From: Slackia sp.
GTDB lineage: Bacteria; Actinomycetota; Coriobacteriia; Coriobacteriales; Eggerthellaceae
Assembly: GCA_030527325.1 (NCBI GenBank)
Contig: JAUNBA010000005.1
Coordinates: 62,001 to 126,000 of the forward strand
Direction of reading: 5' to 3'
DNA length: 64,000 nucleotides
Of this stretch, positions 8,117 through 33,294 are shown in pieces. The notes under the pieces were generated by a model. That model ran no database searches. It had not been told where the DNA came from and saw only the letters and a list, made by a program, of their open reading frames with translations. Made by a program: the position numbers and the translations under genes. Numbering within the stretch: the first letter of the stretch is position 1; each line of letters opens with the position of its first letter.

Positions 8117-9081
8117 GCGGATCGCGCCGACCTCGGGAAGACCGGGCCGAAAAGACGGGCTCGCGCGGCGCGCGCAAGGAGACGCGCTCGACGAGCGCCG
8201 CCTCTGCACGCGGCGCGAATGCGAACGGGTGCTCTTCGGATCGCGGCGCTTCTCGCGCCTCGTCGTCCGCATCCGCACGTTCGTCGCGCGCTTCGTCTGC
8301 CGGTACAGCCGCGCCGCGTTCCGGCGGCGCGGCTGTACCGGCCGCGGGCCGATCGCGCTCGAGGCAGCGGGAGGCCGAGGAGTCTCGGGCGTCGTCGCGT
8401 TCGCGCGCGCAGGCCGCCGTTCCTGATGAGTCGCGGGGCGGCTCCCGCCCGCGCCGCGGCGTTTTCGCCAGGATGCGTTCGCGGTTCGCGCGCGTGCTCG
8501 CCGTCGTGCTCGCCGTTGCGGCGGTGATCGCCTGCGTCGGCGTGCTTGCGACGCGCCCCGATGCGCCGGCCGTGCAGCGCCCCGACGGGCTGCCCGGCTA
8601 CATCACCGACGAGATGATCGACGCCGCACGTGCCATGCGCGACGAATACGGGCATCCTGCGGGATGCACGCTGGCGCAGATCATCCAAGAAAGCGGCCAG
8701 GGTTCGTCGCTTTCCTTGCTCGCGCAGCGCGACAACAATCTGTTCGGCATGAAGTGGGCCGATTCGTTCGCCGGCAAGCCTGGGGTGGTCGGCTCCGACG
8801 ATTGGCGGACCGACGAGGAATACGGCGGCAAGCCCGTCACGATAACGGGCGCGTTCGTCGTTTTCGAAAGCCATAAGGCGTGCATCGAGTTTCGCTCGAG
8901 CGTGTTTTTGCAGGCGTCCGCGTATGCGGACAACCCCACGATCAAGCGCGCGATCGAGACGAACAACTCGGCATTGATGGCATGGGGTCTGCAGGATGCG
9001 GGCTGGGCTACCGACAGTTCGTACGCCGAGCACCTCATCGCGCTTATGGATCAGTACGACCTGTATCGTTTCGACGCATAG
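8113..9081 (+). CDS. Membrane-anchored GH73 glucosaminidase (peptidoglycan hydrolase)
   Basis: 322 residues. The first about 120 are a low-complexity, Arg/Ser/Ala-rich cytosolic tail. They are followed by one transmembrane helix ('VLAVVLAVAAVIACVGVLA') and then an extracellular GH73/FlgJ-type domain. That domain has the expected catalytic Glu in 'LAQIIQESGQGSSLSLLAQRDNNLFG' and the 'W.t.E...G......aFr.f.s...s..dh' pattern that ends in 'YAEHLIALMDQYDLY'. The family cleaves N-acetylglucosamine-N-acetylmuramic acid bonds. The start overlaps the mfd stop (ATGA). A perfect 19-bp inverted repeat lies inside the coding sequence of the linker (8299-8342). Confidence 0.8.
   Translation: MSGSRRPREDRAEKTGSRGARKETRSTSAASARGANANGCSSDRGASRASSSASARSSRASSAGTAAPRSGGAAVPAAGRSRSRQREAEESRASSRSRAQAAVPDESRGGSRPRRGVFARMRSRFARVLAVVLAVAAVIACVGVLATRPDAPAVQRPDGLPGYITDEMIDAARAMRDEYGHPAGCTLAQIIQESGQGSSLSLLAQRDNNLFGMKWADSFAGKPGVVGSDDWRTDEEYGGKPVTITGAFVVFESHKACIEFRSSVFLQASAYADNPTIKRAIETNNSALMAWGLQDAGWATDSSYAEHLIALMDQYDLYRFDA
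8299..8342. repeat. Perfect 19-bp inverted repeat inside the glucosaminidase gene
   Basis: Arms 8299-8317 and 8324-8342 are exact reverse complements around a 6-base loop, within the codons for the low-complexity N-terminal tail. A coding sequence rarely holds such an arm length by chance, so it may be a small palindromic element or a transcript hairpin between mfd and the glucosaminidase domain. Confidence 0.75.
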
Positions 9082-11411: not shown

Positions 11412-13274
11412 CTATGCCCTGCGCGCGCCTGCGTTCGACGCCGCGCCCGCTGATTCGGGAGAATCGCAAAGCGCGCGTTTCTGGTAGAGCCCCGCATCGG
11501 CGAATCCGAGTTTGCGGTAGTAGGCGCGCGTGCCGACGGAGCTGATCACGTTGACGGCATCGTAGCCGGCCTCGCGCGCCATGGAGCAGGCGGTTTGCAC
11601 CAGCGTTCGTCCCAAACCAAGATGCTGCGCCCCCTTGCTGGTGGCGTGCAGTTTGGCGACGGCGCCGTACACGTGCACCTCGCGGATCATGGCTTCGCCT
11701 TCGCCGATCGGCAGGTCCGCGCGCGCGGCCACGGCCTCGCGTTTCGGCAACGATAGGCGCAAGAAGCCGGCGATGCGGTTATCGGGAGTGACCCATTGCA
11801 GGAAATGCTCGGTCGATACGGCTGTTTCGTAGGTCACGTCGTCGATCGACAAGTCGGCCACATCGGTGGCGCGGTTGTTGATTTCGCGGTAGCGGATATC
11901 CGACACGCGCCCGCCGCGGTCGGTCTGTTCGATATGGCGCTCCACCATTTGGCGCAGGTTGGTCTTCTTGTTGCCCGCCATGATGTCGCTTGCCGAGATA
12001 TCCCTGATCATGCGCGAGATGCGCATATAGGGCGGCGTGATCAGCGTGTCGTGCGAGAGCACGTCGATCAACTCGTCTTCGGAGTAGGGCCGCCAGCTGC
12101 CGTCTTCGTAATGCGCGACGAGTCCCGTGCCGTCGACGAGCGCGCAGGGATAGATCTTCACCTCGTCGGGCAGATAGCGCGCGTCGGTCACGAAGGTTTC
12201 GTAATCGCGCTTGTCGGCATCGGGCGTGGCGCCGTAGAGGTTGGCCATGAAGTGCGCGTGTATCTTGAAGCCGAACAGCCGCAGCAGTGCGAAGGCCTCG
12301 GCGATGCGTTCGGGGCCGATGCGGCGATTGTTGGCCGCCAGCACGGCGGGGTCGAGGCTCTGGATGCCGATCTGCACCTTGGTGCAGCCGAAGCGGCGCA
12401 GCATGGTGCAGGTGCGCGCGTCGATCGCGTCGGGGCGCGTTTCCACCACCAGGCCCACGACGCGGCTGGCCGCGCACTCGTTTTCGCGCTGCAGGGCTTC
12501 CAATTCTTCCATCGTGGCGCTTTGCATGGCGGCGGCACGCTGCCAGCCTTCGTGGCCGGCGTACAGCTTGCGCACCGCGGCATTGAACGAAGCGCCCCGG
12601 TCGACGGCCTGCTGGGCGTCGCGGGCGAAGGCCGAAAGCGTTTCCCCGTCGCAGGCGATGCCCGCGTTCGCATAGAACGCGCGGCGCTCTCTCACCTGTT
12701 CGACGGCGTCGACGCCGTCGTTGAGGGCACGGAACAATTCGGCGATGAACCAGGTCTGGTATGCGCGCGGGTAATCGGTCCAGGTGCCGCCCAGCACGAT
12801 GAGCTCGATCTTGTCGATGGGATGGCCCATCTGATAGAGCGCGCGCAGACGCGACGCCACCTGCAGATACGGATCGAAGCAGTTGCGTTCGGCGCGCTGG
12901 CAGGCGGGTTCGTCGTGCAGGTAGCTTTTCGGCATGCGCACGTCGTTGGGGCAGTACAGGCAATCGCTGCCGCAGCTCCACGGTTTGGTGATCACCGTGA
13001 TGGTGGCCACGCCCGAAGCAGTGCGTCGCGGCTTCATCTGCAGCGCGGCGATGAGCGCGCGTTCTTCGGCGGCGTCGAGCCCCCATGCCTCCACCGTTTC
13101 GGGCGCGCGTTCTTTGAGCGCGAAGTAATAGGGCAGGAGCTGCTTTTTCGCGAAGTGGTCTTCGTTGTTCGAAAGCCCTTGGTTGTGTTCGTGCAGGATA
13201 CGCGCGAGCACCTTATGGTCCACGTCGGCGCCGCGGCGTATCTCTTCGATGATTTCAAGCAAAATGGTATCCAT
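11412..13274 (-). CDS. elp3: Elp3-type tRNA uridine-34 modification enzyme (radical SAM + GNAT)
   Basis: 620 residues. An N-terminal helical tRNA-binding region precedes a radical-SAM domain with C101-x3-C105-x2-C108 ('SCGSDCLYCPNDVRMPKSY'), 'LIVLGGTWTDYP' and 'VQIGIQSLDPAVL'. A C-terminal GNAT acetyltransferase domain follows, with 'EVHVYGAVAKLH' and 'HLGLGRTLVQTACSMAREAGYDAVNVISSVGTRAYYRKLGF'. Elp3 builds the cm5 group on U34 of tRNA using acetyl-CoA and SAM. In bacteria the stand-alone form is uncommon and replaces a six-subunit Elongator. The start codon lacks a strong ribosome binding site. It is divergent by 36 bp from a Trm9-like methyltransferase, which could act on the Elp3 product. 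Confidence 0.92.
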   Translation of the reverse strand: MDTILLEIIEEIRRGADVDHKVLARILHEHNQGLSNNEDHFAKKQLLPYYFALKERAPETVEAWGLDAAEERALIAALQMKPRRTASGVATITVITKPWSCGSDCLYCPNDVRMPKSYLHDEPACQRAERNCFDPYLQVASRLRALYQMGHPIDKIELIVLGGTWTDYPRAYQTWFIAELFRALNDGVDAVEQVRERRAFYANAGIACDGETLSAFARDAQQAVDRGASFNAAVRKLYAGHEGWQRAAAMQSATMEELEALQRENECAASRVVGLVVETRPDAIDARTCTMLRRFGCTKVQIGIQSLDPAVLAANNRRIGPERIAEAFALLRLFGFKIHAHFMANLYGATPDADKRDYETFVTDARYLPDEVKIYPCALVDGTGLVAHYEDGSWRPYSEDELIDVLSHDTLITPPYMRISRMIRDISASDIMAGNKKTNLRQMVERHIEQTDRGGRVSDIRYREINNRATDVADLSIDDVTYETAVSTEHFLQWVTPDNRIAGFLRLSLPKREAVAARADLPIGEGEAMIREVHVYGAVAKLHATSKGAQHLGLGRTLVQTACSMAREAGYDAVNVISSVGTRAYYRKLGFADAGLYQKRALCDSPESAGAASNAGARRA

Positions 13275-13310
13275 GCGGGTAAGTCTATCGTAGAATTGCG
13301 GGCGATTCTT

Positions 13311-14123
13311 ATGGATACGAAGACCGCTGAAATACTTTGCAAGGTGACGTCCGATTTTTATCGTGCGCAGGCTGCGTCGTTTTCCGCGACGCGTACGGCG
13401 CCATGGCACGGGTGGCAACGCTGCGTGGCCGCGATGACGAAGGCGATGGGCTTTTCGGGCGAGGATGGCTTTGCCTGTGCGAACGGCATGCGCCCGGCGA
13501 TTTCCGTGCTCGATTTGGCATGCGGCAATTTGCGTTTCGAGCGGTATCTTGCAGAGGCGCTGTCGCAGGCAAGCGTGCGAGCCTATGCGGTGGATAGCTG
13601 CGATGAACTGGCTGCTTCGGCGAGTGAGCCGAATATCGCCGTGATATACGAATCATCCGATATCGTAGGCGGTTTGATTGCGGGCGCGCCGTTGTGCGAG
13701 CTGCATCATGCGCCGCAGGTGGATATGGCCGTGTCGTTCGGTTTTTTGCATCACGTGCCTGGGGTCGATTTGCGCGTGCGCGTGCTGAACGGGCTGATCG
13801 ACGCGGTGCGTCCCGGCGGCTGCGTAGCCGTTTCGCTGTGGCGCTTCATGAGCAATCCCGCTTTGGCGGCCAAGGCGCGGACGACGCACGGCAAGGCTCT
13901 TGCGTCGTTGGGCCTTGCGGCGGATTCGCTTGACGAGGGCGATTACCTGCTGGGCTGGAAGGATGTCGAAGACGCCTGGCGCTATTGCCACCATTTTTCC
14001 GACGAGGAAGCCAGCCGCCTTGCGGCGTCGGTGTCGGATCGGGCGCGTCTGATCGATTCGTTCAAAGCCGACGGCCGTACGGATGAGATGAACATCTACC
14101 TGGTGTTTCAGCGTAATTCCTGA
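13311..14123 (+). CDS. Class I SAM-dependent methyltransferase, Trm9-like
   Basis: 270 residues. The N-terminus 'DFYRAQAASFSATRTAPWHGWQRCV' closely follows the pattern at the start of Trm9/ALKBH8-type tRNA methyltransferases ('Y..IA..FS.TR..PW..V'). SAM motif I is 'VLDLACGNLRFERYL' at about 66-80, and 'MAVSFGFLHHVPGVDLRVRVLNGLIDAVRPGGCVAVSLW' resembles the Trm9 post-II/III region. Trm9 methylates cm5U34 to mcm5U34, the step after Elp3, and this gene is divergent from elp3 with only 36 bp between the start codons. The function is inferred from motif pattern plus neighbourhood. A generic small-molecule methyltransferase is the alternative. Confidence 0.7.
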   Translation: MDTKTAEILCKVTSDFYRAQAASFSATRTAPWHGWQRCVAAMTKAMGFSGEDGFACANGMRPAISVLDLACGNLRFERYLAEALSQASVRAYAVDSCDELAASASEPNIAVIYESSDIVGGLIAGAPLCELHHAPQVDMAVSFGFLHHVPGVDLRVRVLNGLIDAVRPGGCVAVSLWRFMSNPALAAKARTTHGKALASLGLAADSLDEGDYLLGWKDVEDAWRYCHHFSDEEASRLAASVSDRARLIDSFKADGRTDEMNIYLVFQRNS

Positions 14124-14231
14124 CGTTGCGCGCGGTGCGCCTTCGTTTTCGAAGCGCATTGTTCGAAAATAGCCCCTTCCCAAAACGAATCGTTTACGGT
14201 AAAGTTGCAAATCGCAATGTGACATTGCCCG

Positions 14232-14322
14232 TTTTATCCAGAGTCGGGTTAGAGAATTGGCTCAATGACCCCGACACCAACCGGCCATAAAGGCACGGTG
14301 GTCCTGCCAATATCGATGAAAG
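14232..14322 (+). ncRNA. SAM riboswitch-like leader (S-box/SAM-I-IV type), copy 1
   Basis: The leader of the gene at 14331 contains TTATCCAGAGTCGGG, CCCGACACCAACC and GGTGGTCCTGCCAA-(n)-CGATGAA. All three blocks occur in the same order and spacing in the leader of metK (31930-32020). The blocks line up with the S-box core (AUC-AGAG, then the ..GGC..GA..CC..CAACC region, then ..AGGUG....CC, then GAU of P1). The P1 3' strand abuts the AAAGGAG ribosome binding site, so control is probably translational. The family is inferred from the metK pairing; no covariance search was possible. Confidence 0.75.
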
Positions 14323-14330
14323 GAGCTCGT

Positions 14331-14732
14331 ATGAACGAGTACATTAATCTTCACGCTGAATTCAAATCCCTGCATTTTCCCGATAAGCCTTTCGGATTCG
14401 TTTCCGCGATGGCGAAAAACTCGCTTGCGCATCAGATGCGCTTTTCGGTCGAGTCTTTGGAAAACAAGCTTGAAAGCCAGGGCGAGCCGCGTGTTCTGCA
14501 ATTCGAAATCGATGAAAGCTCCTGTGAATGCGAAAGCGGCTGGTCTTTGTACGCTAACGGCCGTCTTGCGGCAAGCGGTAGCGTCGCTTTCGCGCGCCAA
14601 TGCTTCGAGCAGGGCGAATGGGAGTTCCGCGATCTGTGCGAGGCGGCCGTGTCCTCATCGAGCGAGGCGCTTTCTCGTGACGAATTCCGCCTTCTTCGCG
14701 CAGCGCGCGCTATCGCCGCGGTAGGCGCGTAA
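14331..14732 (+). CDS. Unknown 133-residue protein under a SAM riboswitch-like leader
   Basis: I do not recognise this protein. It is soluble, with no transmembrane segment and no signal peptide. The N-terminal half is mixed helix/charged ('AEFKSLHFPDKPFGFVSAMAKNSLAHQMRFSVESLENKL'), followed by a beta-rich centre with a Cys pair ('FEIDESSCECESGWSLYANG') and a helical Ser/Ala-rich tail. The ATG at 14331 has AAAGGAG 5 bases upstream; a longer frame starting at 14265 would begin inside the riboswitch and is rejected. The leader matches that of metK, so a role in methionine, SAM or methylation metabolism is likely, but nothing in the sequence names the reaction. Confidence 0.75.
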   Translation: MNEYINLHAEFKSLHFPDKPFGFVSAMAKNSLAHQMRFSVESLENKLESQGEPRVLQFEIDESSCECESGWSLYANGRLAASGSVAFARQCFEQGEWEFRDLCEAAVSSSSEALSRDEFRLLRAARAIAAVGA

Positions 14733-14990
14733 GGAGCGTTTTTTGCCGCGGCGCCTGATGCGGCGAGCGGTTTTCGCGTGCGCGGAGGATTCGGCGCGCG
14801 ATGCGCAGGGGGCGACGGTCCTCGCTCCAGCGCCGATTTCTTATTTCTTATTGATACTCACCATGAATAGTAAATCTCGGCGGCTGCTTCCCCGCGAAGC
14901 GGACGGCCATCTGCGGCCGTCGGCCGGCGTTCGTGCCGAAGCGCATGGACGGCCGGCATGCTGCCATACCAATCGAAGGGCGATGAGCGG

Positions 14991-15695
14991 ATGGATTCCA
15001 TGTACGAGCAGAATATCGTTATAGACCTCGAATTCACAAGGCCGACGGACGAGGAGGTGAAAGCAAGCCTTCCATTCGAGATCATCCAGATCGGGGCCGT
15101 GCGCGTCGATGCGCGCGGGAATAGCCTCGATACGTTCGAGAGCTATGTGCGCCCCTGGTTCGCACGCGATATTTCCCGGGAGGTGAAGCGGCTTACGGGC
15201 ATTTCGCGAGACGACGTGTTCGCCGCCGACCCTCTTGAGCATGTTATGACCCGTTTTCTCGAGTGGGTGGGCAAGGCTTCTACGCGTGTCGTCGCCTGGA
15301 GTGACAGCGATTTCATCCAGCTTTCGCGCGAAACGCGATTCAAAGGAATGCCGTTCGCGCTCGGGTCGCTTTCCTGGCTCGATTTGCAGAAGGTGTGCCC
15401 CCGCTTGATGGGCGTGAACGTGAAAGGGTACGCCATGGGGCTGAGCACCGCCGCCGAGTGGTGCGATATCGAAATCTCGCCCGATCGCCTGCACGGCGCC
15501 CTCTACGACGCCACGGTGACGGCGAAGCTGCTCGCTCGCGTCATGGCGAGCGAGCGGACACCGCGCAAAAAAGCCCTGCCGCGAATCGTGTGCGCTCCTG
15601 ACAAGCGCGAAGTGCTTACGGCGAACATCGGGAGCCGCTTTGCGGAGCTGCTCGATCTTAAGGCCTCGTTGCTTGCCGCAAGTAGCGCCCGTTAA
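14991..15695 (+). CDS. DEDDh-type 3'-5' exonuclease (DnaQ/RNase T superfamily)
   Basis: 234 residues. Exo I is 'NIVIDLEFTRP' (the D and E of DEDD). The Exo II region is 'VVAWSDSDFIQL'. Exo III is 'HGALYDATVTAKLLARVM' with the H-x4-D spacing of the DEDDh class. Stand-alone members trim DNA or RNA 3' ends, so the substrate cannot be specified. The ATG at 14991 is chosen for GAAGGG upstream; a second ATG 9 bases later is possible. It is the last core gene before the lower-GC island. The 258-bp gap before it (14,733-14,990) shows no other gene. Confidence 0.82.
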   Translation: MDSMYEQNIVIDLEFTRPTDEEVKASLPFEIIQIGAVRVDARGNSLDTFESYVRPWFARDISREVKRLTGISRDDVFAADPLEHVMTRFLEWVGKASTRVVAWSDSDFIQLSRETRFKGMPFALGSLSWLDLQKVCPRLMGVNVKGYAMGLSTAAEWCDIEISPDRLHGALYDATVTAKLLARVMASERTPRKKALPRIVCAPDKREVLTANIGSRFAELLDLKASLLAASSAR

Positions 15696-15905: not shown

Positions 15906-16673
15906 ATGGAGGACGCCCTTTGCGTTACGGAAGCAAATGATGCTTTTCTGCTGGACAGGCAAAAGGAGATGATAGCCATGGCTGCAAATCAGCCTTGGTA
16001 TAGGAACTCTCCCGTTCCTGACGAGGTGAAATCGGAGCTATCGCCTTATTTCATATCATTTGTTTACATACCCGATCAGATAAGGCCGAGTATTGATGAT
16101 TTGTATTCGGAAAAATACGAAGAGCCCGTGGATGGTCTTTGCGAAGACTGGAAAGCGGCATTCGAGTCCGGGTCGATTTATCAACGTGCAGACGGCGGTG
16201 TAGGGTTTCCGTTGCGTTTTAAGCGCATGAACGGTCATGTGGCGGAAGCGATAATTAAACGAAATACCTGTTACAGCGCTGGAAACAGCGATTTTTCTCC
16301 ATGGCGTTTGATGAATTTCCCTCGTGTTCAGGATGTTGCTTTGGACGATCTCGATGGCTGTGCTGATGGAGAAAGCTGCCAAAGTCCAGCCAGTTTTGCC
16401 GATTCGGAACCAGGCCTTTTGCCCGAAAGGCTTGGTGAGGAGCTGTCGAGCGTTCTTGAGACCAGTGATTTTCGATCGAATCGTATTTCGTCCAGCACGA
16501 TTGACTCGTTGGGCGCATATGAGCGATTCCAGGACATGGTGTATCTCAATGCGCGCTGGCGTAATAAGCTGGTTGCTCTTGTGGGATATGATTTTGATGT
16601 CCTTGCGTTTCTTGATAGGGAGTGGAACTGGGCGAAAGAGCAGGGAATTCTGAAAGAATACGAAGGAAGGTAA
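15906..16673 (+). CDS. N-terminal fragment of a split DUF3825-type protein
   Basis: A 255-residue frame behind GAAGGAGAAAACC, with visibly lower GC than the flanking genes. It contains the module 'DWKAAFESGSIYQRADGGVGFPLRFKRMNGHVAEAIIKRN'. Its last residues, 'FLDREWNWAKEQGILKEYEG', are the start of a second copy of the same module, and that copy continues in the +1 frame as 'KVSFPVSIRLHDGKTLAKVTIKRD' before the next gene. So this and the following frame look like one protein broken by a frameshift near 16,660-16,675. No function is known for this part. The 210-bp gap before it (15,696-15,905) holds no gene; a short GTTTCAT/ATGAAAC inverted repeat lies in it. Confidence 0.65.
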   Translation: MEDALCVTEANDAFLLDRQKEMIAMAANQPWYRNSPVPDEVKSELSPYFISFVYIPDQIRPSIDDLYSEKYEEPVDGLCEDWKAAFESGSIYQRADGGVGFPLRFKRMNGHVAEAIIKRNTCYSAGNSDFSPWRLMNFPRVQDVALDDLDGCADGESCQSPASFADSEPGLLPERLGEELSSVLETSDFRSNRISSSTIDSLGAYERFQDMVYLNARWRNKLVALVGYDFDVLAFLDREWNWAKEQGILKEYEGR

Positions 16674-17742
16674 GGTTTCGTTTCCCGTAAGCATACGCTT
16701 GCACGATGGGAAAACGCTGGCAAAAGTCACCATAAAACGCGATAGACAATACGGTGCGGAATCGGCCCAGCCAGAGCGGATGCCATGGTTTGTGTCATGG
16801 GTGGATGATTATGTGCCAAGCAAAGGGGAGCAAGGAAAGGCTCTTGGCGATTGGGCAATTATGAACTGGGATACCGCATTGGAGAAATTGGCTGAAATGG
16901 CTCTTCCCGAACCGTGGGATTTCGATGTGCCTGATGGACAGCGACCGACTTTTGCCATCTTGAGAAATTACTTGTCTTATACCTTCTATAAGCTTAGGCA
17001 AGAAGGCGAGGTTCTCGAAAGCGAGAGCCATGGTATCGCGGCATTCAACACGGGACTTGTTGGCGAAACTTACGAGCCGATTTTTGCATGTTTCGTCCCG
17101 GCTCGAGCGGAACAAAAATGGAGGTTTTCGGGGTTCTGTAAAGCAGGTGCCCAGGGACAAGGGAAAGCTCTCGTCAGGGCGTTTAATCCCTTGCCCGAAC
17201 GTGCTCGCTATTTCAGGAGTAAACAGGATCTCCTTTATGATCCCGAATACCCCTTCTATATCGATCACGACCATATACTTATCGATAATATACACAGATT
17301 GCCGCTTTCGTTTCTCAGGGAAGAATTAAGAAGCGACGATGAGGCTTTGGCGATTCTTGATGACATCGAGAGTTCGTCATCGCAGCAAAATCAAAGTGAA
17401 TTATTTGATGATATTCGTGCTATTGTGGAAAACAATAGTCGTTTGCTGCGTGGCTTTATCAGTCACTTCGATGATGCGGTTGCGCTCGCTAGGAAGCGGG
17501 CGGAGTGGAATTATAGAACGACGATTCCGACGTTCTATCCAAAGAAGGATATAATGTGCCTCCTTCTTCCTCTTGATTTGACGGAGGATGGGATTCCGGA
17601 TGTTGCCCTTGTAATGGAGCCTATGGAAACGAAGGCGTATTTGGGCCAAACTATTTTGACAATGGAAATGGCTTATAAAAATGCGCGTCTTGTATGCCGG
17701 CCTGACAGCGATTGGCTTGATGTCAAAGTATGCGGGCGATAG
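16654..17742 (+). pseudogene. DUF3825-domain protein, probably the C-terminal part of a frameshifted gene
   Basis: The open frame runs from 16654. The first start codon in it is a TTG at 16699 (347 residues) without a ribosome binding site. The central and C-terminal part has the DUF3825 pattern: 'ALEKLAEMALPEPWDF', 'ILRNYLSYTFYKLRQEGEVL', 'AAFNTGLVGETYEPIFACFVP', 'ALVRAFNPLPERARYF', then 'YPFYIDHDHILIDNIHRLP'. DUF3825 has no established function and appears in accessory regions. The N-terminal 'KVSFPVSIRLHDGKTLAKVTIKRD' repeats a module seen in the preceding frame. The simplest reading is a one-base insertion in the purine run near 16,663-16,670. A sequencing error would give the same picture. 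Confidence 0.6.
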
Positions 17743-31873: not shown

Positions 31874-31929
31874 TTCGAAGCTTGAAAGCCGCGGCGTATG
31901 CGGCGGCGCTTCTTTTGCACTATGCAGCC

Positions 31930-32020
31930 GTTTATCCAGAGTCGGGGGAGAGGGTTGGCTTGCCGATCCCGACACCAACCTGGCGCGTCAGCCAAGGTGG
32001 TCCTGCCAACAACGATGAAG
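31930..32020 (+). ncRNA. SAM riboswitch-like leader (S-box/SAM-I-IV type) of metK, copy 2
   Basis: This leader shows the same blocks as the leader at 14232-14322: TTTATCCAGAGTCGGG, CCCGACACCAACC, then AGGTGGTCCTGCCAAC and CGATGAAGG. It lies directly before metK, the SAM-forming gene, which strongly supports SAM sensing. The last P1 strand touches the GAAGGAGG ribosome binding site, so ligand binding would hide the site and block translation. Two helices, GTCGGG/CCCGAC (31941-31946 with 31968-31973) and GGTTGG/CCAACC (31953-31958 with 31975-31980), cross in order, which would make a pseudoknot or alternative folds. Confidence 0.8.
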
Positions 32021-32028
32021 GAGGAATC

Positions 32029-33294
32029 GTGACCGATACCCATTCCAGCTATGTCTTCACGTCCGAATCCGTGACCGAAGGCCATCCCGACAAAATCTGC
32101 GACCAGATTTCCGACGCCATTTTGGACGCCATCCTTTCCAAGGAAATCGCCTTGGCCGAAGAGGGCTATGTTGCGCCTTCCGGCCAGCCCGCCGATCCGA
32201 CCCAGCTGCGTTGCGCATGCGAGACCCTGGTCACCACCGGCATGGTGGTCGTGGCAGGCGAGATCCGCACCCAGGCGTATGTCGACGTGCAGGAAATCGT
32301 GCGCGGCGTGCTGTCCGACATCGGATACGACCGCGCCAAATACGGCTTCGATGCCAGCACGTGCGGCGTGATGAACGCCATTCACGAGCAGAGCCCCGAT
32401 ATCGCCCAGGGCGTCGATGAGTCCTGGGAGGCCCAGCACGGCGCCGACGTGCAGGCCGATCCGTACGAAAGCGTCGGCGCGGGCGACCAGGGCATGATGT
32501 TCGGCTATGCCTGCAACGAGACGTCCACGCTCATGCCCATGCCGATCTATCTGGCCCATCGCTTGTCCGAGCGGCTGACCGAAGTCCGCAAGAACAAGAC
32601 GCTGCCGTATCTGCGTCCCGACGGAAAGACCCAGGTGTCCGTGCGCTACGAAGACGGCGTTCCCGCCGCGGTCGAAACGGTGGTCGTCTCCACCCAGCAT
32701 TCCGAGGATATCGACAACGACACGCTGCGTCGCGATATCGTCGAGCAGGTGATCGAGCCCGTCATGGCGGCCGAAGGCGTCGCGCTCGACGCGAACGCGG
32801 GCATCCACATCAACCCCACCGGCCGTTTCGTCGTGGGCGGGCCTATGGGCGACGCGGGCCTTACCGGCCGCAAGATCATCGTCGACACCTACGGCGGCAT
32901 GGGCCGTCACGGCGGCGGCGCGTTCTCCGGCAAGGATTGCACGAAGGTCGATCGTTCGGGTGCCTACGCCGCGCGCTGGGTGGCGAAAAACGTCGTGGCC
33001 GCGGGCCTGGCCGATCGTTGCGAGGTTCAGATCGCCTATGCCATCGGCATGGCGCATCCCGTCTCCGTGCTGGTGGAGACGTTCGGCACCAACAAGGTGG
33101 CCATCGAAGATATCGAGCGCGCGGTCGAAACGGTGTTCGACCTGCGCCCCGGCGCCATCATCGACGAGCTCGACCTGCGCCGCCCCATATATCGTCTGAC
33201 CAGCAACTACGGTCATTTCGGCCGCGAGCTTCCCGAATTCACGTGGGAGCGCACCGACCGTGCCGACGCGTTGCGCGCGGCATGCGGCCTGTAG
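32029..33294 (+). CDS. metK: S-adenosylmethionine synthetase
   Basis: 421 residues, making SAM from methionine and ATP. Visible motifs are '[20 protein letters not shown]' at the start, '[16 protein letters not shown]', and the glycine-rich P-loop '[32 protein letters not shown]'. It starts with GTG at 32029, six bases after AAGGAGG; the upstream open frame crosses the riboswitch and is rejected. It is regulated by the leader at 31930-32020 and followed by an intrinsic terminator. Confidence 0.98.

Follow-up and report, generated by a model that had tools for sequence, protein, structure and literature searches.

A stretch of 64,000 nucleotides from Slackia sp. (the window) carries a compact variant of the SAM-I riboswitch directly before a gene for a 133-residue protein, termed here the orphan gene, at 14331-14732 on the forward strand. 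While the riboswitch belongs, as a variant, to a known class, the protein family behind it is new in the sense that the literature and databases searched contain no description of it. Taken together, the riboswitch, an OFF mechanism at the level of translation and a dedicated single-gene target form a reading that we hold to be likely. Every full-length copy found of this uncharacterised protein family is tied to a SAM riboswitch.

A covariance search with cmscan matched positions 14231-14322 (+) to RF00162 (SAM riboswitch, S-box) with 46.9 bits and an E value of 1.4e-07, above the gathering score of 44.4 bits. The best match retained within the SAM clan was RF00162, rather than SAM-IV (RF00634) or SAM-I-IV-variant (RF01725). 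The P2 internal loop, which the SAM-I/IV variants are reported to lack (PMC2864571), is present here. A second RF00162 match, just under the gathering score (41.0 bits, E 7.2e-06), was found at 31929-32021 (+), upstream of metK, the SAM synthetase gene, which by its translation starts with GTG at 32029 and occupies 32029-33294 (+), stop included. The two leaders start 17,698 bases apart, are of the same compact type and have near-identical conserved blocks. The preliminary description had called the window leader SAM-riboswitch-like and had likened it to the metK leader 17.7 kb away; both points are borne out, the two leaders being the same Rfam element and not another one. The orphan-gene leaders of the homologues scored 40.5-58.4 bits against RF00162, several of them just under the gathering score. 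The assignment of the window leader to SAM-I riboswitches of a compact, P4-less kind is well supported by sequence comparison, and SAM binding is predicted.

The anatomy of the aptamer was examined in an alignment of 24 leaders (A4), 10 from metK and 14 from orphan genes. Across P1, P2 (P2a and P2b), P3 and the L2/J3 pseudoknot, 96.2% of the cells are paired, and 42 cells show a double, compensatory change, compared with 13.3 in shuffled alignments (none of 500 shuffles was as high); 10 base pairs have changes on both sides. The motif GAUGAA is invariant in all 24 leaders, as are the G of J1/2, the AAC of P3 and the UG of GGUG, which are positions in contact with SAM in the solved SAM-I structure. 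In addition, P1, P2, P3 and a hairpin 5′ of the aptamer are recovered without constraints in the minimum-free-energy (MFE) fold of window positions 14205-14360. Only 4 nt separate the pseudoknot from P1, with no hairpin there in the MFE fold, so the leader is classed as a P4-less variant; P4 is usual yet variable in SAM-I riboswitches and lies outside the binding core. The loss of P4 and the scores around the Rfam threshold would also suit a leader that is a relic, or a sensor of another ligand, with the gene run mainly by its promoter. However, the invariant core, the compensatory changes in P1, P2 and P3 and the retention of the leader in all full-length copies across several families argue against such a leader, which we consider very improbable.

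The expression platform is equally compact. The 3′ strand of P1, GAUGAAAGGAG (14315-14325, +), which contains the invariant GAUGAA, merges into the Shine-Dalgarno sequence AAAGGAG (14319-14325), and the MFE fold places five of the seven Shine-Dalgarno nucleotides (A14319-A14321 and G14322-G14323) in P1 or in the extension of this stem. The AUG follows 5 nt past the Shine-Dalgarno sequence and 8 nt past the end of the aptamer, leaving no space for a separate expression platform. Since most of the Shine-Dalgarno sequence is taken up by P1, SAM should block translation directly: bound SAM would keep P1 closed and prevent ribosomes from starting, and a fall in SAM would let P1 open, free the ribosome-binding site and allow the orphan protein to be made. 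These switching steps are carried over from the SAM-I class, and it is the conservation of sequence and structure that the analysis shows. With translation switched OFF by SAM, the orphan protein is predicted to be a factor induced by SAM starvation. A P4-less leader with its Shine-Dalgarno sequence inside P1 would be a very small SAM-I switch.

Upstream of the aptamer, a TANNNT box occurs 28-35 nt before it in 15 of 16 representative orphan leaders, and the putative −10 element of the window leader, TAAAGT, is at 14200-14205 (+). A sigma-70 consensus scan returned no full promoter upstream of the window leader, and we therefore infer the −10 element from the conservation of the box. Also in 15 of the 16 leaders, a hairpin of varying sequence stands immediately 5′ of P1; in the window it reads GCAATG-TGA-CATTGC (14214-14228, +; seen in the MFE fold), is followed by UUUU and also receives a terminator-like score. 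The hairpins of the orphan leaders have a mean stem of 6.4 pairs and a mean shuffle p of 0.21, against 4.3 pairs and 0.61 for the metK leaders. The position of the TANNNT box together with the hairpin suggests that the transcript probably begins at the hairpin, which may act as a 5′ stabiliser, an insulator or a weak terminator.

The association of leader and gene was followed through the family and the class. Whole-genome searches of 138 genomes from the family Eggerthellaceae found relatives of the orphan gene in 12, and a profile search of 398 genomes from the class found them in 34, with fragments counted; those named belong to Slackia faecicanis, Slackia sp., Adlercreutzia hattorii, Adlercreutzia sp., an uncultured Enterorhabdus, other Eggerthellaceae and Collinsella aerofaciens. 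No relative outside Coriobacteriia was found in 396 genomes of the phylum, and, as far as sampled, the family appears confined to this class. The leader occupies the same upstream place in all 32 full-length or near-full-length copies from 31 genomes. These comprise 12 genomes of Eggerthellaceae, 17 of Collinsella with 18 copies between them, and the genomes G317 and G416. The presence of the leader was established by reading the upstream DNA and by comparing the coordinates of the protein with those of the RF00162 matches; the leaders of G019 and G416 were recognised in the sequence and are not listed by the Rfam search. Three 5′-truncated Collinsella copies (G280, G299, G374) have no leader, and their genomes contain no RF00162 match at all. 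In the 17 Collinsella genomes with a leader-bearing orphan gene, RF00162 matches occur only at the orphan gene (two in G321, which has two copies), showing that the riboswitch tracks the orphan gene, not metK, and that metK has no detectable SAM-I leader there. Thus, in Collinsella, a common genus of the human gut, the orphan gene is the only SAM-I target detected. The association across 31 genomes of gut and related bacteria, in several families, makes a SAM-responsive role likely, and the orphan protein probably adds a new component to the way in which these cells respond to SAM shortage.

Similar leaders were also seen before other genes. On contig 22 of Collinsella genome G203 (L109:2599-3166), the same compact leader precedes a different protein of 155 aa that has two zinc-ribbon-like Cys4 clusters. 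A search of 44 other Collinsella genomes gave no full homologue of this protein, the only two partial copies being within G203 itself. In L086 (G359) and L093 (G392), a SAM-I leader and a terminator-like hairpin are followed not by metK but by unrecognised proteins, with longest frames of 405 and 135 aa, respectively.

The 133-residue product, which the preliminary description could match to nothing, indeed falls into no known family. The window protein gave no match to Pfam or NCBIfam up to an E value of 1 and none to PDB sequences or profiles; for 12 family members searched against Pfam, NCBIfam, PHROGs and PADLOC, the best weak matches had E values of 0.011 or worse. The reading frame, the homologues, the predicted fold and a median dN/dS of 0.16 over 105 Collinsella pairs (Nei-Gojobori) indicate that the gene is a real protein-coding gene under purifying selection. 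Positions with L, Q, M, E, W, G, A and F are invariant in the alignment of the family, and Q35, M36, E44, Q57, W71, R89 and F92 are among the conserved residues. The product is a single-domain protein; its hydropathy (−0.15 to −0.76) and a reading of the sequence indicate that it is soluble and has no transmembrane segment, and the family is neutral to acidic (pI 4.5-7.0). A CxC segment ("SSCECESGW") had been suggested to be functional, but it is private to the window sequence; the family has no conserved cysteine pair, neither cysteine being kept, and this idea fails. Four sequences (A6 rows L008, L013, L014 and L080) carry a conserved C-terminal tail like FDxGSxIMGSRxGRVF, which is absent from the window protein.

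Modelled with AlphaFold, the window protein (pLDDT 86.2) and a Collinsella homologue (pLDDT 85.7) show the same predicted fold, alpha-beta3-alpha3, with one long helix, three strands and three further helices. For both models the Foldseek list is headed by double-stranded RNA-binding domains (dsRBDs), which would suggest a regulator that has a dsRBD-like fold and binds RNA or DNA when the cell is under SAM stress. However, the best E values are 0.03-0.04, and the VIA Z scores for dsRBDs are 2.4-3.3. Moreover, dsRBDs carry a basic KKxAK helix, whereas the orphan family has FARxCF at this place and is neutral to acidic overall. Such a regulator appears distinctly unlikely. Among solved structures, neither model had a Foldseek match below 0.001 or a VIA Z above 5.1, and a viral structure library returned nothing significant for the orphan protein model; given the dsRBD matches and Z scores of this level, no fold family was assigned.

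Riboswitch targets usually belong to the metabolism of the ligand, and those of SAM-I are usually methionine or SAM genes. This custom, exemplified by the met operon of Xanthomonas (PMC7270179), would favour a protein that aids methionine uptake or salvage, for example as a transporter partner, as had been proposed before. Most other coriobacterial SAM-I leaders inspected also precede metK (in Eggerthellaceae those inspected do so, and elsewhere in the class mostly so), which points the same way. Against this role, the orphan protein is soluble, no recognisable methionine transporter or met gene lies beside it in the inspected loci, and the family has been found in one class only within the genomes sampled; a part in uptake or salvage is thus unlikely. 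The wider proposal of a methionine- or SAM-related factor holds in part: the presence of the leader with the gene in 31 genomes speaks for a SAM-responsive role, but there is no clear co-occurrence of the orphan gene with MetE-like PF01717 in Slackia, and in Collinsella the co-occurrence is confounded with phylogeny. The literature search, which covered articles outside subscription, found no paper on the orphan family or on SAM riboswitches in Coriobacteriia. From its regulation, the protein can be tentatively read as a non-enzymatic binding protein or regulator that tunes the supply or use of methionine or SAM, a possibility that we rate somewhat below even. Through the riboswitch link, the function of the orphan family becomes directly testable, and a response to SAM shortage that has so far gone unrecognised is indicated.

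The surroundings of the gene differ from genus to genus, being shared only among close relatives and at one common Collinsella site, and the orphan gene therefore stands alone. An operon or a conserved neighbour was rejected, since across genera only a DEDDh exonuclease gene lies near three copies. In three genomes of different genera, this DEDDh-type 3′-5′ exonuclease (RNase_T) gene and the orphan gene are less than 4 kb apart (window 14958-15692, L053:7590-8369 and L113:11470-12204). Elsewhere in the window, an Elp3-like radical-SAM/GNAT gene (−) and a class I methyltransferase gene (+) point away from each other at 11415-14120, a pair that we regard as reminiscent of wobble-uridine modification by Elp3 and Trm9; the methyltransferase gene ends 110 bases upstream of the riboswitch. 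A DUF3825 protein (E 1e-68) at 16699-17739 follows an unmatched 255-aa ORF (15906-16670), with transposase-like ORFs nearby, and a near-perfect, long 18-bp GC-rich hairpin at 8300-8341 gives a weak Rfam sbcD match (30.4 bits, under the gathering score).

Several observations bear on mobility. The Collinsella copies all sit at one variable site inside a purine/selenium gene region, and in the protein tree they group with the copy of the Eggerthellaceae genome G014 (support 98/96), whose leader and promoter pattern are also most like theirs and whose locus has a gene read as a TraG/VirD4-type coupling protein. This grouping, the likeness of leader and promoter and the coupling-protein gene suggest that the unit was probably transferred between families, with promoter, leader and gene probably passing horizontally as one. 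A phage origin was rejected: neither phages nor viral contigs contained a match, and PHROGs gave none that was significant. The sole "plasmid" match lies on a Collinsella replicon of 899,693 bp whose gene content resembles that of a chromosome, and it is the same stretch as G231.

A patchy, transferable gene of this kind could also be a defence-linked alarm, in which SAM depletion, e.g., through a SAM-degrading enzyme of a phage, leads to production of the protein, which then shields the cell or curbs the cell's own restriction enzymes when methylation fails. Phage SAMases are described as counter-defence against restriction-modification (PMC7877911), which fits this alarm. As a weak lead, 5 of 11 independent loci have anti-phage genes no more than 8 kb from the orphan gene (nominal Fisher p 0.018 vs. 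11 control regions): Gabija GajA/GajB (L044), Cas9 and Cas1 (L053), IetA/IetS with a YhcG-type nuclease (L054), an HKD-Snf2 helicase (L048) and AbiE (L147). No complete anti-phage system was recognised in the 11 control regions among the best 25 families listed per set. In strain D16-34 (L053:11181-15869), the orphan gene is followed, after about 0.75 kb, by the genes for Cas9 (1255 aa) and Cas1. However, accessory genes in general gather in variable islands, and the sample is small with controls unmatched for islands. The orphan protein also has no significant match in PADLOC, phages or viral contigs. Of 20 genomes with the orphan gene that were examined for type I methylase genes, 7 have none (G201, G260, G267, G288, G331, G072 and G416), which excludes an obligatory type I partner, and a partnership with type I restriction-modification was rejected for this reason. 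Overall, the alarm appears improbable. Its more specific form, a transferable unit of SAM riboswitch and small effector in which loss of SAM would yield a protective protein, possibly as a defence against phages that degrade SAM or against restriction of the cell's own DNA once methylation fails, seems more doubtful still.

Compared with known systems, the orphan models share the alpha-beta-beta-beta-alpha order of the dsRBD fold, with weak Foldseek similarity (E 0.03 at best), but have extra C-terminal helices and no basic RNA-binding motif. With SAM-I riboswitches of RF00162, the window leader shares the stem P1, the internal loop in P2, the CCAACC...GGUGG of P3, the L2/J3 pseudoknot and the cis position before a gene. 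It differs in having neither P4 nor a separate expression platform and in carrying the Shine-Dalgarno sequence on P1; the orphan leaders differ further in the 5′ hairpin before P1 and in their uncharacterised target protein. In the SAM-I Xcc riboswitch of the Xanthomonas met operon, the aptamer acts mainly on translation (PMC7270179). That riboswitch has a separate anti-Shine-Dalgarno stem and senses uncharged initiator tRNA (PMC7270179), whereas the window leader has space for direct occlusion by P1 only. The closest counterparts are the metK leaders of Eggerthellaceae (e.g., 31929-32021), which have the same P4-less architecture and near-identical conserved blocks. Their 5′ hairpin is less regular, their J1/2 is mostly CAAGAG compared with CCAGAG in the orphan leaders, and their P1 ends at the 3′ side in GAUGAAGGAGG, in contrast to GAUGAAAGGAG in the orphan leaders.
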